Of a stretch of DNA of 64,000 bases, positions 7,765-64,000 are shown piece after piece. The stretch is from positions 3,348,001 through 3,412,000 of the forward strand of contig NZ_JAMLFW010000001.1 of the NCBI RefSeq assembly GCF_024256385.1. The letters are read 5' to 3'. The position numbers were made by a program, and so were the translations under genes. The notes beneath the pieces are model-generated. The model did no database searches and was not told where the DNA came from. It saw only the letters and a program-made list of their open reading frames with translations. Positions within the stretch are counted from its first letter, which is position 1. Each line of letters starts with the position of its first letter. This DNA comes from Anatilimnocola floriformis (GTDB lineage Bacteria > Planctomycetota > Planctomycetia > Pirellulales > Pirellulaceae).

Positions 7765-8226
7765 ATGTACGGCGAGCTCATTCCCCTGGGCGGCGGTGAT
7801 CCAATTCCCCTGCTCAAAGAAAGCCTGATCATCGGTCGGCGCGACGAAAAGTGCGACATCGTGCTGCGCTTCGGCAATGTTTCGGGCCAGCACTGCCAGC
7901 TGACACTCGAGCACGGCTACTGGTACGTGCAGGATTTGAACAGCAGCAACGGCGTGAAGGTGAACGGCACGAAGGTGACGCGCAAGCGCGTCGATCCCAA
8001 CGATGAACTGACCGTCGCCAAGCACAAGTACAAGATGACGTACAACCCGACCGAGCTCGGCGCCAGCGGCCCGCCTCCGAGCGACGAAGCCGACTACGCC
8101 AACATCATGAGCCGCAGCTTGCTCGAAGCCGCCGGTTTGCAAAAACGGAAGCTCCCCGAAACTCGCCGCTTCGACGTCAACAGCGATGATCCCGATCAGC
8201 TGAAGCGCAAGAAGGGCCTCGAATAA
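7765..8226 (+). CDS. Small FHA-domain protein
   Basis: A 153-residue cytosolic protein that is almost entirely one forkhead-associated domain (about residues 1-95). The phosphothreonine-binding signature is present: LIIGRRDEKCDIVL, VSGQHCQL and LNSSNGVKVNG. FHA domains bind proteins phosphorylated by Ser/Thr kinases, and a kinase gene is at 42565-44478. The C-terminal 55 residues are basic (QLKRKKGLE) and have no recognised domain. The gene stands alone between a divergent radical SAM gene and an inverted repeat. Confidence 0.87.
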   Translation: MYGELIPLGGGDPIPLLKESLIIGRRDEKCDIVLRFGNVSGQHCQLTLEHGYWYVQDLNSSNGVKVNGTKVTRKRVDPNDELTVAKHKYKMTYNPTELGASGPPPSDEADYANIMSRSLLEAAGLQKRKLPETRRFDVNSDDPDQLKRKKGLE

Positions 8227-8450: not shown

Positions 8451-9473
8451 ATGAAAACTCCTCTTCCCTTTTCCGATTCCGTCGAAACGATTCCCGCTGA
8501 TGAAGCGCAGCAGATCGCGCGGATTGTCGAAATCGTGCAGCAGACGCAGAAAATCCACTTCGATAAGACGGGCGAGTTGCACCGCGATGTTCACGCCAAA
8601 GCGAATGGCTGCGCGCGGGGAGAGTTACGCATTTCGGCCGGCCTGCCTGCGGAGCTTGCACAGGGGCTGTTTGTACAACCCGCCACTTACCACGCTGCGG
8701 TTCGCTTTTCGAACTCGGCCCCTTGGTTTCAAGCCGATCTGGTTCCCGATGGTCGCGGCCTGGCCATTCAGGTCGAAGATGTTCCCGGCGAGCACGTTGA
8801 CGACGGGGTCACCACGCAAGATTTTGTAATGGTGAATCATCCTTGCTTCATCACCGCCGATGTGCGGGAGTTTTTGGAGATCGAAGAAGCTCGCCTCCGC
8901 GCAGCCGATGATCCGATCCAGCTGGCCGCAGTCCTCGCGAGCAAAGAATGGAATCCGCTGAAGTGGAACTGGCGTGAAAGTCTCGCGCTCGCGCAGTTGG
9001 TAGCGCAGCTGCCGTCGCATCCGGCTAGTTACACGTACTACAGCATGAGTCCGATTCGCTTCGGCAACTATGTTGCCAAGTATCGCCTCCAACCCGCGGT
9101 CGATTTGCCGAGTTCCACGCTGTGGTCCGCGGCACGGGTCGCCACCGAACGCGATGCCATGCGCCACATGCTCGCCGAGACACTGCAAAGCCAGGAGCTG
9201 ACGTTTGAGTTCCAGGTGCAACTGCGCACTGCCGAGGAGTCGATGCCCATCGAAGACGCTTCCGTAACTTGGCCGGAAGCCGAGTCACCGTTTCGAACGG
9301 TGGCTCAGTTGGTCCTGCCTCGCCAGGACATTTCGGCGCCAGAAGTTTCCGCCGCCGGCGAACGTCGCGCCTTTAGCGTCTGGCATGCACTCGCGGCCCA
9401 TCGACCGCTCGGCGGCATCAATCGCTTGCGACGCGCCGTGTATCCCGCGTCGGCGAAATTTCGCGGCGCGTAA
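8451..9473 (+). CDS. Catalase-like heme protein
   Basis: A 340-residue protein of the short catalase-related group. Blocks matching the catalase fold are DVHAKANGCARGEL, whose His corresponds to the distal heme His, then AAVRFSNSAPWF, PDGRGLAIQV, QDFVMVNHPCF and IRFGNYVAKYRLQP. It is much shorter than classical catalases (about 480 residues or more) and has no signal peptide, so peroxidase or fatty-acid hydroperoxide chemistry is as likely as true catalase activity. The ATG at 8451 is preferred: the longer frame from 8373 adds 26 residues with no family similarity. No good ribosome binding site is visible. Confidence 0.8.
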   Translation: MKTPLPFSDSVETIPADEAQQIARIVEIVQQTQKIHFDKTGELHRDVHAKANGCARGELRISAGLPAELAQGLFVQPATYHAAVRFSNSAPWFQADLVPDGRGLAIQVEDVPGEHVDDGVTTQDFVMVNHPCFITADVREFLEIEEARLRAADDPIQLAAVLASKEWNPLKWNWRESLALAQLVAQLPSHPASYTYYSMSPIRFGNYVAKYRLQPAVDLPSSTLWSAARVATERDAMRHMLAETLQSQELTFEFQVQLRTAEESMPIEDASVTWPEAESPFRTVAQLVLPRQDISAPEVSAAGERRAFSVWHALAAHRPLGGINRLRRAVYPASAKFRGA

Positions 9474-58803: not shown

Positions 58804-59850
58804 CTAAGGATTGGTTTCGCCACCGTCGCGCGTGCAGAAGGCGTGGATGACGGTGGTGTCGGTCGAATCGGTGAAGACGCGGTTGCTTCCGTCAGCGAGC
58901 AGCACCACGGCGCCGCCCGGGTGGTAAGAGCTGATCGGGAAGTTGGCACCCACATCATCCGAAGTTCCGCTGGCGGCGTCGCCAGCGAACCCAACCTGGT
59001 TGATCCGATAACGGACTGCCGTGCAGTTGAAGTGTCGCTTGTCACTCCAAGTAGCTTGAGTCTCAGTTGCACCGACTGCCGAACCCATCGTCCAGCCATA
59101 TCGGCCACCGCTGTTGCCAGTCTTCTGCCAGCTGTTAAACGGAGCAGTGACAGGTTTTTGGCTGGCGTCGAGCAGGTGGCGGCTCTGCTCACCAATCATC
59201 CACGTATTGCTCGAGCCATCGGTGATCGACGAAAAGCCGGTTTTGCTATTGGCATAGAAGACGCCGTTGTCCGACGCGAGCGATCCCGAGGCTGTCGCGG
59301 TGCAGCAGCCTTGCGGATAGACGCCAGTGCCTGATGTGTTAATCGCCGAGCCCGAGATGCCGGTATATGAAACGATCATCTTGCGGGCCGCCGCACCACC
59401 GGAGGTGAAAAACTCGGGCACCGCGCTCGATGGACAGCGGTAGACTTTGATCTTGAGATCATTGACTGCCGCAGCGTTATTGGCGTTCGTGTAGCCGCTG
59501 GACGACACGAACTGCCACTTGTTGTAGACATTCGCTTGCTCGACGTAAGGGAGCATGTACACCATCCACGAAGATCCCCAGCCAGTCGTAGCTGAGGTGC
59601 CGAACTCGTTCATGTCGTTGGCTGAACCAGGCATAAACCGGTTGCCATAGGTATCGTGGAAATTGTGAGCTGCCAAGCCGAGCTGCTTCATGTTGTTGCT
59701 GCAGCTGCTGCGGCGAGCCGCTTCGCGAGCAGCCTGCACAGCTGGTAATAGCAACGCGACCAGCACCCCGATGATGGCAATTACCACGAGTAGCTCGACC
59801 AGGGTAAATCCTTGGTTACTCCGTCTGCCCATCTTTAACCTTGCGACCAT
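58804..59850 (-). CDS. DUF1559 prepilin-like protein
   Basis: A 348-residue protein with a type IV prepilin N-terminus: after MGRRSNQ comes GFTLVELLVVIAIIGVLVA with the Glu at position +5 of the mature form, and then LLPAVQAAREAARRSSCSNN, the signature shared by planctomycete DUF1559 proteins. The C-terminal part is beta-rich and ends HPGGAVVLLADGSNRVFTDS. A prepilin peptidase would cleave before GFTLVE. It probably uses a GspE/GspF motor such as the one encoded beside it. Start: ATG at 59850 (GAGGGA upstream) or 59832. Confidence 0.92.
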   Translation of the reverse strand: MVARLKMGRRSNQGFTLVELLVVIAIIGVLVALLLPAVQAAREAARRSSCSNNMKQLGLAAHNFHDTYGNRFMPGSANDMNEFGTSATTGWGSSWMVYMLPYVEQANVYNKWQFVSSSGYTNANNAAAVNDLKIKVYRCPSSAVPEFFTSGGAAARKMIVSYTGISGSAINTSGTGVYPQGCCTATASGSLASDNGVFYANSKTGFSSITDGSSNTWMIGEQSRHLLDASQKPVTAPFNSWQKTGNSGGRYGWTMGSAVGATETQATWSDKRHFNCTAVRYRINQVGFAGDAASGTSDDVGANFPISSYHPGGAVVLLADGSNRVFTDSTDTTVIHAFCTRDGGETNP

Positions 59851-60521
59851 TGCGTTCCCTCGGCTCGGCTAGAAAATAAAAAAATCGAAATGGAGGTGCT
59901 GCATGCATAAGGGGCGTTGAACGTCCGCTATCCGGCTTTAAAGGTCGTCGCCGGCGCACACTCAGTCAAGACAAATGCAGCAAAATTATGCGGATTGTCG
60001 CATTATTAGTTTTCACTGCGTCAAAAGGGCGCAGTTGGCACGCGACTGTACGGGTGCGAACCATCTCAGATGGCCGTGGTGCGGGGTCGAAGCGGGGTCA
60101 GAAACGCGGCCTTAAAAGCTGGGGAATATGAGGATCATACCAGCAAGTTCTGCCTATCGTTTAGGCACGCGCCGCTAAATGCCGCGTCAGTCAGGAATAT
60201 GCGCAAACCGCAGAGAAAAATATTGCGAGCAGTGAACCTGCTGCAACACTTTATTCAGAAATGACTTGTGCTTTGCGTCCAATTCTCGGCGTCGATTGCA
60301 CTTCTCGATTGGCACAGCGCGTGCAATATGCTGGAAACGTCAGCGACGAAGACGAAAGAATGAAGAAGTCAAACCTTCACACTTTCTTCCGATGTGCTGA
60401 ATACACATGAGACAAGATTTGCCCGTCAGCACAATTTCAGTGGAGTTGGAACTGCAGCCTGCCGGTTGAGATTCTCAGCCAGTGCTCCTGTGGTTGCCAC
60501 ACACCAACTGAAACGCACCGA
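59851..60521. other. 671 bp region upstream of the DUF1559 gene, before the repeat array
   Basis: The left end must hold the DUF1559 promoter. No gene is convincing: the open frame at 60070-60264 and others have no recognisable similarity. The stretch 60130-60420 is less G/C rich than its surroundings. It leads directly into the five-copy hairpin array, so a promoter for that array, if transcribed on the plus strand, could be here. Confidence 0.45.
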
Positions 60522-61137
60522 ATCGCCCGTTGCTGCCCGGCATCTGAATTTGGGGGAGGGAGAGGCCTTCAAGTTCAGATGCCTGGGCGCACACGGCCGC
60601 TGAATCAGCGAGTGCCACGAGCAATTCAACCATATCGCCCGTTGCTGTCCGGCATCTGAGTTCGAGGGAGGGAGAGGCCCGCGAATTCAGATGTCGGACG
60701 CACAGGCTATCAGCCGCGAACACGCTGGCTCCTACCGCACATCACCGAAATTTTGATATCGCCCGTTGCTGTCCGGCACCTGAATTTGAGGGAGGGAGAG
60801 GCCCGCAAATTCAGGTGCCCGGACGCACAGGCTCCTGCGAAACGCAGGACAACCGCACAAGCTTTGAGTTAGCTACCCGACATCGCCCGTTGCTGCCCGG
60901 CATCTGAATTTATGGGAGGGAGAGGCCCGTAAATTCAGGTGCCCGGGCGCACCGGCCCAAGACAAAGATTGAACATAGGCTCGAACGATTCGAGTCTACG
61001 GACTGATGAAATTGACAAGAAGTCGCCAGCTAATCGCTGGAAAGCAGCAGTCCTTTTTGTATCGCCCGTTGCTGCCCGGCATCTGAATTTGGGGGAGGGA
61101 GAGGCCTTCAAGTTCAGGTGCCCGGGCGCACACGGGG
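60522..61137. repeat. Array of five structured hairpin repeats with a constant G-rich loop
   Basis: Five direct copies of a roughly 75-base element start at 60522, 60634, 60758, 60882 and 61061, separated by unrelated spacers of about 36, 50, 49 and 105 bases. Each begins ATCGCCCGTTGCTG, forms a stem of about 18 base pairs, carries a loop with GGGAGGGAGAGGCC, and ends near GCGCAC. Stem changes are paired on both arms: GCCC/GGGC in copies 1, 4 and 5 becomes GTCC/GGAC in 2 and 3; TTTG/CAAA becomes TTCG/CGAA in 2 and TTTA/TAAA in 4. The loop is unchanged except at its ends. Some spacers hold small hairpins too, such as CCTGCG-AAA-CGCAGG and CTCGAA-CGA-TTCGAG. Either strand could be transcribed. 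Confidence 0.9.
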
Positions 61138-61211
61138 CGCTTTCTTAAAAAGTCGTCGAACTCTTCGCGACTCATGCTCCTTACAACACAGCATCGAACA
61201 ATCGGCACTTA

Positions 61212-63281
61212 CTACCCTGCAGGCGTTTTGAGTCCGAAAAGCATGACTACGGAACGGCCGACAACTCGGTAGCTCTTTCCTGCGTGCGCGGGAGCATCTT
61301 CCCAGCGACAAATATCGAGCGGTGAATCGAGCGACGTGTCGATCCAACGCCGCCAAGGTGTGCCTTTCAAATCGGGAAGTTCGAAGTCCAGCGACTCCCA
61401 GTATGAATTCAGCATGATATGGAAAACCAACCCGTCGGCTTTGAGCTCACCGCTCAGCGCCAAACTGCGGGAGTCATCACCCCAATCGGGTTGAGCGAGT
61501 TTCACTCCATGCCACGACTCGTTGGCCTCACGCAGCATGGCATTGATGCTGACCCGCTGCTGTTCATGATCGACCTGGCGCAGCGCTCGCCGACTGCAAA
61601 GGAGGCTGACAAATCGATGCACATCGGCGTGCTTCTCCAAGAGCGACCAATCGAGCCAACTCAGTTCGTTATCCTGGCAATAGGCGTTGTTGTTGCCGTG
61701 CTGCGTTTGGCGTAGCTCGTCACCCATGAGCAGCATAGGCACGCCTAACGCAAGTAAGTTAATCGTGAAAAAATTCTTCACCTGCCGATTGCGAACGCGT
61801 TCGATCGCCAAATCGTCAGCGGGCCCCTCCACGCCGCAGTTCCAGCTGCGATTGTCGTTTGCACCGTCCCGATTTTCTTCGCCGTTGGCCTCGTTGTGCT
61901 TCTCGTTGAAAGAGACCAGATCGTTCAACGTGAAGCCGTCGTGACAGGTCACAAAATTGACGCTCTGCTCGGCTTCACGCTCTTTGTGACCGTACATTTC
62001 CGGGCTGCCAACAAGTCGATCGGCCAGTTTACGAACCGCTCCCGGTTCGCCTCGCACAAAGTCGCGGATATCGTCGCGGAACCGACCGTTCCATTCTCGC
62101 CAAGCATCACCGACGAAGTTCCCCACCTGATACAGTCCCGCTGCATCCCAGGCCTCGGCCAGAAGCTTGGTACCTGCCAGCACCGGGTCGGATTCGATGT
62201 CCCACAGCACGGGTGGATTTGGGAGCGGAATACCAGCGGCATCGCGCGTGAGAATCGAGGCGAGATCGAAGCGAAAGCCGTCGACGTGCATCTCTTGCAC
62301 CCAGTAGCGCAGGCTATCGATGATCATCCGCCGGACGATCGGATGATTGGCATTGAGGGTGTTGCCTCAACCGGTGTAGTTGGCGTAGCGCTCGCCGCCT
62401 TGCTCGAGCGTGTAGTAAGTCGTGTTATCGATGCCTTTGAAACTGAGCGTTGGCCCGCGCTCGTCTCCTTCCGCGGTGTGATTGAACACCACATCGAGAA
62501 TCACTTCGATTCCCGCGCGATGCAGCGCTTTCACCATGTCACGAAACTCATTGATGGCCGCCAGCGGATCGGCCTTCGAGCTGTAGGCGGGATGCGGCGC
62601 GAAGAACGAAATCGGCGCGTATCCCCAGTAGTTCACCTTGCCGGGTGGGCAATCCTGCGAATCGAAATGAAACACCGGCAGCAGTTCAACAGCGGTGATC
62701 CCCAGCTTCTGCAGATACGGAATCTTCTGAATAAGCCCTGCATACGTGCCGCGTAAATCTTCGGCGACACCGGAATTCGGATTGCGAGTGAACCCGCGGA
62801 CGTGCATTTCATAAATGATCGTTCGCGCGGCAGGACGTTGCAGCGGCTGATCACCTTCCCAGTCATACTGACTTGGATCGACGACCACATTCTTCATCGC
62901 TGGTGTTGCACACTCACCTGGCTGGCAGGCGTCCAGCCGCGAATAACCGCTCGGCACGACAACTCCGCGACCATACGGATCGAGCAACACTTTCGCCGCG
63001 TCGAACCGCAAGCCGCGCTGCGGCGTGATGGGACCGGTGACACGATAGGCATAGAGCTGCCCCGCTTTGAGCCCTGGCACGAACAGATGCCAGTAGTAGT
63101 ACGATCGCTGTCGTACCGGATCAAACGCAATGACCTTGCTCGGCGAGACGTCATCCATGGCGTCGAATAGCAGCAGTTCAACCCCGGTCGCATGACGAGA
63201 AAACAGACTGAAATTCACTCCCTCGTCGTACACCGTAGCGCCCAAGGGAGAGCTGAAGCCCGAAGTGGAGTCGTTTGCCAT
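61212..63281 (-). pseudogene. glgX: Glycogen debranching enzyme interrupted by an in-frame TGA
   Basis: Apart from one stop codon this is a full-length GlgX (690 codons). The first part (63281-62370) has the CBM48 domain and PVFHFDSQDCPPGKVNYWGY, VILDVVFNHTAEGD and ends GERYANYTG. TGA follows at 62369-62367. The frame resumes with GNTLNANHPIVRRMIIDSL, then VDGFRFDLASIL (nucleophile Asp), LLAEAWDAAG (acid/base Glu), FVTCHDGFTLNDLVSF (stabiliser Asp), VPMLLMGDEL, to 61212. The TGA replaces the Cys of the conserved TGCGNTL. It may be a nonsense mutation, a sequence error, or a recoded codon; I see no convincing bacterial SECIS hairpin after it. The ATG at 63281 is the likely start. The enzyme removes alpha-1,6 branches from glycogen. 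Confidence 0.85.
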
Positions 63282-63351
63282 TGGATGCCGAATCGCCTCG
63301 TTGCGCCGAAAGTAAAACGAGCAATATAAGAGCTGTCGCATGCTGCGGCGA

Positions 63352-64000
63352 TTATTGTTCGCCCACTTTGCAAAAGGGGCACTCCTTGGCTGCATCGACG
63401 GCGGCTGAGTTCAGCCGTAGACCTTCGCCTGGAATCCAGTCCAACCGCTGCCAAAAACTGGTGCGGAGTGTGCCCGCCAGTAAATCGAGCCAACTACCGA
63501 TGCCCGCCGATACTGTTGCGGCATTGATGGTGATCAGGCTGCCAGCTCGCTGCTCGGACCAGGCCGGCATGGTTCCTCGCTGCAGTGTGTTCGGGGGCGC
63601 AGCCAGACGATACAGAATGCTTTCACGTTCCTCCGGCGTCAGAGGAGGCGTGCAGGCACAGCAGCCATGACGCGGCAGAAACAATCGCGAGTCGCCGATG
63701 ATCGCATGTGGTAATGTCGGACGATTGGAAACGCTCGTGGCAATGTCCAAATGTGCGACATTCATTTTCTTCGCAAGCAACCCCGCCGCAACCCGAGCGG
63801 CATCGTCGTCTACGCAGGTCACCACGAGATCACACGATTCGCCGAACAACGCTGCGGCTTCTGGACTGAGTACCGAGTAATTTCCGCACGTCACAGCGAG
63901 ATCGTCGCGAGCACGCAGGATGGTATCGGCAACAGCTTCCGCCTTGGGACGACCGATCGATCCCCGGCTCACGCCTGGCATGCCATCGAGGTTCTCGGGC
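63352..64000 (-). CDS. ThiF/MoeB-type E1-like adenylyltransferase, C-terminal part
   Basis: The gene enters from the right edge; about 216 residues are visible and the frame is open to 64000. VSRGSIGRPKAEAVADTIL, DLVVTCVDDDAARVAAGLLA and the zinc-type pairs GCCAC and ECPFC near the end match E1-like enzymes that adenylate ubiquitin-like sulfur carriers or similar C-termini. The nucleotide-binding GxGxxG and adenylation Arg would be outside the window. Which protein it activates is unknown. It lies upstream of glgX on the same strand, 70 bp apart. Confidence 0.75.
   Translation of the reverse strand, partial: PENLDGMPGVSRGSIGRPKAEAVADTILRARDDLAVTCGNYSVLSPEAAALFGESCDLVVTCVDDDAARVAAGLLAKKMNVAHLDIATSVSNRPTLPHAIIGDSRLFLPRHGCCACTPPLTPEERESILYRLAAPPNTLQRGTMPAWSEQRAGSLITINAATVSAGIGSWLDLLAGTLRTSFWQRLDWIPGEGLRLNSAAVDAAKECPFCKVGEQ

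Follow-up and report, generated by a model that had tools for sequence, protein, structure and literature searches.

Which function is served by five hairpin-forming repeats that follow one another within 616 bp of the Anatilimnocola floriformis genome is the question raised by a 64,000-nucleotide stretch of this planctomycete's DNA (contig NZ_JAMLFW010000001.1, positions 3,348,001 to 3,412,000; hereafter the window). The five direct copies, which had been noticed in a sequence-only reading of the window, were recovered by a repeat search as units of 70-71 nt between positions 60522 and 61131, with start-to-start distances of 112, 124, 124 and 179 nt and spacers of 41-108 nt between the hairpins. 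As shown by comparison with related genomes, the element is predicted to fold as a plus-strand RNA, or as that single strand, and is accompanied by a conserved sigma-54-type site. The array is very probably one gene for a non-coding RNA, driven by sigma-54 and read from the plus strand. It is the sigma-54-type promoter, not reported in the sequence-only reading, that alters the picture most.

Hairpins, their relatives and the strand that folds

Each copy folded alone yields one long hairpin with an RNA minimum free energy of -39.2 to -40.6 kcal/mol. The z-scores relative to dinucleotide shuffles lie between -3.75 and -5.67, depending on the copy, and none of 200 shuffles folds equally well for four of the copies and one of 200 for the fifth. 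The stem, first estimated at about 18 bp, comprises 24-25 predicted pairs in these single-copy folds. The compensatory exchanges read by eye, GCCC/GGGC to GTCC/GGAC and TTTG/CAAA to TTCG/CGAA or TTTA/TAAA, are all present in the alignment, and the single exchange described as A-T to C-G is found there as T-A to C-G. Of the segments thought to be constant, ATCGCCCGTTGCTG and GGGAGGGAGAGGCC are indeed the same in the five window copies, whereas GCGCAC begins with A in copies 2 and 3, so that CGCAC is its invariant part. Pairing is possible between the two ends of the 14-nt loop core, which reduces the real loop to AGGGAGAGG, of 9 nt. At the top of the stem, G35-C45 is replaced by A-U in two other genera. 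A two-tier G-quadruplex pattern fits two of the five copies and a three-tier pattern none.

BLASTN over 60 genomes identified two positive genomes, that of A. floriformis itself (G000) and that of a congener (G001) with four copies. A covariance model built from these nine copies (R1), a check that the sequence-only reading had proposed together with a count of copies in relatives, matched four of 241 genomes of the family. The newly recognized genomes, G099 and G229, belong to two further genera and contain one copy each, such that the copy numbers are five, four, one and one. The R1 E-value of the G099 copy is 3.4e-16. That of the G229 copy, 1.8e-5, is barely better than the 9.5e-5 of the reverse-strand shadows of the array (37.5 versus 35.4 bits in the same search), and G229 is therefore counted as a member because its loop does not differ and its promoter has the corresponding position. 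A model of all 11 copies from the four genomes (R2) again matched four of the 241 genomes, with G099 and G229 contained in the model by construction. At the level of the order, three of 396 genomes matched (G000, G001 and G229) and no new genus was added, in a sample that may not have included G099. The family and order scans used stricter filters, at the cost of weak matches. With relaxed filters, 35 chosen genomes of the family yielded G099 (together with one shadow on its reverse strand), G229 and four further, weak matches with E-values of 0.044-0.93 (G008, G010, G012 and G062). These four were excluded, as neither strand has AGGGAGAGG or TGGCAC-N6-TGCA and the alignments share chiefly the 5' box or the stem. 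G012 also contains an isolated exact ATCGCCCGTTGCTG (L102:1501-1525) without the AGGGAGAGG loop or the promoter, probably by chance. Nothing matched in phage and plasmid collections or in a distant BLASTN search, and the exact pattern was absent from viral contigs. Its one match in genome contigs, in a Bacteroidetes metagenome-assembled genome, lacks by eye the 5' box and the 5' stem arm and was taken as chance. In an RpoB tree of 28 genomes, G099 stands beside G000 and G001 with a local support of 0.999, a position that fits vertical descent; 30 genomes were searched for RpoB, and G229 and G111 gave no match, so that G229 is unplaced.

The 11 copies of the four genomes support the earlier proposal that selection acts on the fold of a nucleic acid and that the sequence of its loop is read. 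In an alignment fitted to the model built from nine of those same copies, 99.6% of the cells are paired, and 10 of the 24 pairs show two-sided changes, amounting to 19 such cells. None of 500 shuffles matched the observed values for paired cells, two-sided pairs, two-sided cells or the covariation score, and slid controls pair 18-47% of the cells. A fifth measure, the number of further pair types, is unexceptional, with 183 of the 500 shuffles matching it. The loop AGGGAGAGG is identical in all 11 copies and the 5' box ATCGCCCGTTGC is present in 10 of them. Hairpin identity is about 90% within each of the two congeners and between both (0.894, 0.903 and 0.899); since identity within genomes resembles that between them, there is no sign that the copies of one genome have been homogenised. 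The spacers are not conserved: their alignment between the species (0.767) is no better than that of shuffled spacers (0.757), the identities counting ungapped columns only and having meaning solely against this control. Two spacers of G001 (L019:8560-8735) share GTGAGGTCGAATGACCTCCTG, followed by second hairpins of differing sequence, and thus have a structure of their own.

The stems also distinguish between the strands. Over the 11 copies, G.U occupies 24 cells of the plus-strand stems and C.A a single one, and the G.U cells would become A.C mismatches if the other strand were read. The plus strand is predicted to be the more stable one in every copy, by as little as 0.8 kcal/mol in window copy 3 and 2.2 kcal/mol in the G229 copy.

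Predicted promoter and transcript

Promoters of the sigma-54 type carry a -24/-12 element with the consensus GG-N10-GC. Upstream of the hairpins it has the form TGGCAC-N6-TGCA, and sites were scored out of 11. Alignment of G000 with G001 revealed a conserved upstream stretch containing TTGGCAC and GTGCAATA, and sigma-54-type sites are present in all four genomes: TGGCACAGCGCGTGCA in G000, TGGCACGGGTCGTGCA in G001, TGGCACGGCCTGTGCA in G099 and TGGCACTCTGTTTGCA in G229. Each scores 10 of 11 and is the sole site with a score of at least 8 in the 300 nt 5' of the first hairpin; relative to that hairpin the promoters start at -212, -203, -190 and -182. In the background, 9 sites with the promoters' score occur in 791,302 bases (both strands, with the true sites and overlapping loci counted), or about 0.003 per 250 nt. 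A pattern combining promoter, spacing and loop was found in three of 240 family genomes, namely G001, G099 and G229, and its reversed control in none. The pattern misses the window's own array, whose gap of 232 nt lies outside the given range, and, having been composed after the four sites were viewed, it measures rarity rather than discovery. Scans of stretches from the window, G099 and G229 revealed no sigma-70-type site. A second good sigma-54-like site in the window, TGGCACCCGAGTTGCT at 399-414, is remote from the array.

The features assigned to the predicted transcript are listed in the table. Within its 5' leader, a block at 60370-60389, CAAACCTTCACACTTTCTTC, is identical in the alignment to that of the congener. 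Terminator-like sites on the plus strand follow the last hairpin in two of the four genomes (G001, 8825-8843; G099, 1634-1670). Because shuffles of these stretches alone give such sites, on average 1.6 in G001 and 0.9 in G099, the evidence for termination consists of the position of the sites and of the 16-pair stem in G099. The promoter, the terminator-like sites of the two relatives and the G.U wobbles together indicate the plus strand, contrary to the earlier suggestion that a minus-strand CUCUCCCUCCC could pair with Shine-Dalgarno (SD) sequences.

Table. Hairpins and predicted transcription signals of the array (positions in the window)
Feature	Position	Strand	Basis
Hairpin copy 1	60522..60592	+	Repeat finding, single-copy fold
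Hairpin copy 2	60634..60703	+	Repeat finding, single-copy fold
Hairpin copy 3	60758..60828	+	Repeat finding, single-copy fold
Hairpin copy 4	60882..60952	+	Repeat finding, single-copy fold
Hairpin copy 5	61061..61131	+	Repeat finding, single-copy fold
Predicted sigma-54 promoter TGGCACAGCGCGTGCA	60310..60325	+	GG-N10-GC site, aligned with the site of the congener
Predicted 5' leader	60336..60521	+	Start near 60336 deduced from promoter geometry
Possible 3' end (weak)	61061..61146	+	Base of copy 5 extendable, CGCCCG with downstream CGGGGCG, then TTTCTT; fold of the whole predicted transcript

Possible function of the RNA

The best overall explanation, to which we assign somewhat less than an even chance, is that of a sigma-54-dependent RNA gene whose product acts in trans as a decoy for a protein of the CsrA family. 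In this model, sigma-54 RNA polymerase would start a stand-alone plus-strand RNA of about 0.8 kb near position 60336 and end it near 61150. The RNA would present one to five long hairpins, each with the invariant loop AGGGAGAGG, and in trans these loops would serve as decoy sites for a protein that binds RNA, most plausibly a member of the CsrA family. Once the sigma-54 activator senses its signal, the RNA would sequester this protein and thereby release the mRNAs that it targets, with each additional hairpin copy adding a site. Transcription, the ends of the transcript and control by an enhancer-binding protein we infer. An RNA acting in trans is the simpler assumption because the array has no constant neighbour. 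Synteny between G000 and G001 covers upstream genes such as gspE and gspF, but the window's DUF1559 gene is unmatched in the G001 stretch, a beta-lactamase-like gene lies upstream in G099, and a gene for a large repeat-containing protein lies downstream in G229 (both named by inspection).

Whether the predicted RNA works through protein binding rather than through pairing is evenly balanced in our estimate, and the identification of the bound protein as CsrA is tentative. It agrees with the presence of AGGGA, a form of the ANGGA motif, in all 11 loops; ANGGA is carried by RsmE sites according to excerpts of PMC7652899. Each hairpin offers one ANGGA site, and an RNA has 1-5 hairpins; the copy numbers of five, four, one and one are also counted in favour of the decoy. 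The four genomes contain 8 (G000), 8 (G001), 7 (G099) and 8 (G229) csrA matches, all 31 above the Pfam cut-off. Eight of the csrA-family products were read and are full-length CsrA-like proteins of 69-77 amino acids. According to a computational regulon study (PMC12316311), the predicted sigma-54 targets of Planctomycetia are enriched in COG1551, the CsrA group, and sigma-54 promoters are reported for csrA of Pirellula sp. strain 1. CsrA titration, one of the functions suggested from the sequence, thus accords with an ANGGA motif in every loop and with the multiple csrA genes, and fits the loop size, the stem length and the extra invariance imperfectly. A more general version, likewise tentative, would be a planctomycete regulatory circuit of a novel type: sigma-54 and its activator might drive the RNA, and the number of hairpins might determine how much of a global RNA-binding regulator stays free, the regulator belonging to the roughly eight CsrA-family proteins or being a new protein.

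Several observations weigh against the sigma-54-driven CsrA decoy. A weak sigma-70-like site lies directly 5' of the sigma-54 site in G001 (8129-8158), and the terminator scan revealed no site in the window and none on the hairpin's strand in G229. Among eight csrA loci inspected (of the 31 matches), none has a sigma-54 site with a score of at least 9 within 300 nt upstream; one site scores 8 at -261. In excerpts of PMC7652899, selected CsrA ligands mostly have six-nucleotide loops with at most four contiguous pairs, and added loop nucleotides can reduce RsmE affinity, whereas the array has a 9-nt loop on 24 pairs. The nine invariant loop bases and the 5' box exceed what ANGGA demands. The four predicted transcripts show no GGA enrichment outside the hairpins, and the single hairpin in two of the four genomes is poorly suited to titration.

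A loop of 9 nt that never varies, set on a stem that does, is also to be expected of a pairing seed. The same sigma-54 RNA could therefore act by antisense, an alternative that we regard as a genuine possibility, if a doubtful one: AGGGAGAGG would pair with the C/U-rich CCUCUCCCU in mRNAs, and the hairpins would perhaps be separated by an RNase, as in Pseudomonas NrsZ, which reportedly has several similar stem-loops. Within 30 nt before ATG, CCTCTCCCT is more frequent than its reversed control in G001 (26 versus 16), G099 (25 versus 13) and G229 (43 versus 34), in contrast to the A. floriformis genome itself, where 29 sites face 42 in the control. Some of the sites are the array read backwards (four in G000, three in G001 and one in G229), and the control is a reversed pattern only. 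In 30 of the 123 sites that were compared, no reading frame of at least 60 amino acids beginning at the first ATG was common between genomes, a weak test either way. NrsZ itself, as described in parts of PMC8395346 and PMC9308961, is RpoN-dependent and processed, and function resides in its first 60 nt, which include one stem-loop; it differs from the array in its size of about 226 nt, its action on rhlA and its motif ACAGGCAG. It is improbable, though less so than the readings that follow, that the RNA is a structural scaffold or a decoy for a protein other than CsrA that reads the G-rich loop or an SD-like sequence. The long stable stems, the invariant loop and the 5' box would suit a composite site beyond ANGGA; no protein is linked to the array, and the immediate neighbours in G000, G099 and G229 differ.

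Long palindromes can extrude from DNA, and REP elements are short hairpins, such that the array might act at the DNA level, as a cruciform, a protein-binding array or a REP-like mobile repeat, as the sequence-only reading had considered. This is very unlikely. A search of the 8.93-Mb genome for the 14-nt core with at most one mismatch gave eight places, comprising the five copies and three one-mismatch sites elsewhere (reversed control, one), and of the 12 covariance matches up to E 10, five are the copies, five are the shadows of these on the reverse strand and the other two lie above E 1. All strong matches thus fall inside the array, and the copies of the relatives sit behind the same type of promoter, which argues against a mobile element. 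A cruciform, retained as a minor reading, leaves unexplained both the promoter linked to the element in all four genomes and the stems' acceptance of G.U and near-exclusion of A.C, which point to RNA or to one particular strand. Hairpins with uneven spacers also superficially resemble integron cassette arrays, whose attC sites have the cores RYYYAAC and GTTRRRY. However, GTTRRRY is found in none of the five copies, and the sole RYYYAAC lies in the sequence flanking copy 2. Given also the spacers of the window and the recovery of the element in three genera, the probability of an attC array, or of a chance or low-complexity artefact, is negligible.

Of the known systems, CrcZ and NrsZ are nearest in logic to the predicted array RNA. 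CrcZ is an RpoN-dependent decoy for Hfq, according to the sections of PMC8395346 and PMC9308961 that describe it. CrcZ and CrcY of Pseudomonas share the decoy logic; by description they differ in that CrcZ offers A-rich motifs to Hfq and the array hairpins offer AGGGAGAGG. The decoy RNAs CsrB, CsrC and RsmZ resemble the array in repeating hairpins whose loops carry GGA (ANGGA). The array differs from them in its fixed 9-nt loop on 24-pair stems, the missing GGA enrichment elsewhere, the predicted sigma-54 promoter and the single copy in two genomes. The small RNAs of Alphaproteobacteria with CUCCUCCC (anti-SD) loops are said to be homologous tandem RNAs with a fixed loop motif; the strand of the array that would be transcribed is the opposite one, with a G-rich sense.

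Novelty and neighbouring genes

The sequence-only reading had not recognised the element as a described RNA family, and Rfam 15 at the gathering threshold indeed gave no match in the whole window or in loci L021, L022 and L030. A permissive Rfam scan returned microRNA models only, all below gathering. The mir-8489 model (RF04007), a microRNA precursor, scored 24-27 bits compared with a gathering threshold of 99, and alike on both strands; it was dismissed because long stems can resemble one another by chance. A literature search, with subscription journals largely outside its coverage, found no small or non-coding RNA of this kind from planctomycetes or Pirellulaceae by title or the start of the abstract. 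The array appears to represent a real, conserved family of RNA genes with a narrow distribution, undescribed as far as Rfam and the literature were searched. If this is true, an RNA that combines covarying stems, a predicted promoter, a set repeat unit and natural copy-number variants would provide a handle on RNA regulation in the phylum and also on the reason why these genomes retain seven or eight csrA genes.

Both genes that flank the array are on the minus strand. On one side, positions 58804-59850 encode a DUF1559 protein with an N-methylation motif; on the other lies an isoamylase/GlgX-like gene (61212-63395). The latter contains one in-frame TGA at 62367-62369, inside a conserved motif and at a position where the orthologues viewed have Cys or Thr. 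Orthologues without an interruption exist, for example in G001, and the related gene in G029 has one in-frame TGA at another position. The TGA of the window may be a mutation, a sequence error or a selenocysteine codon.
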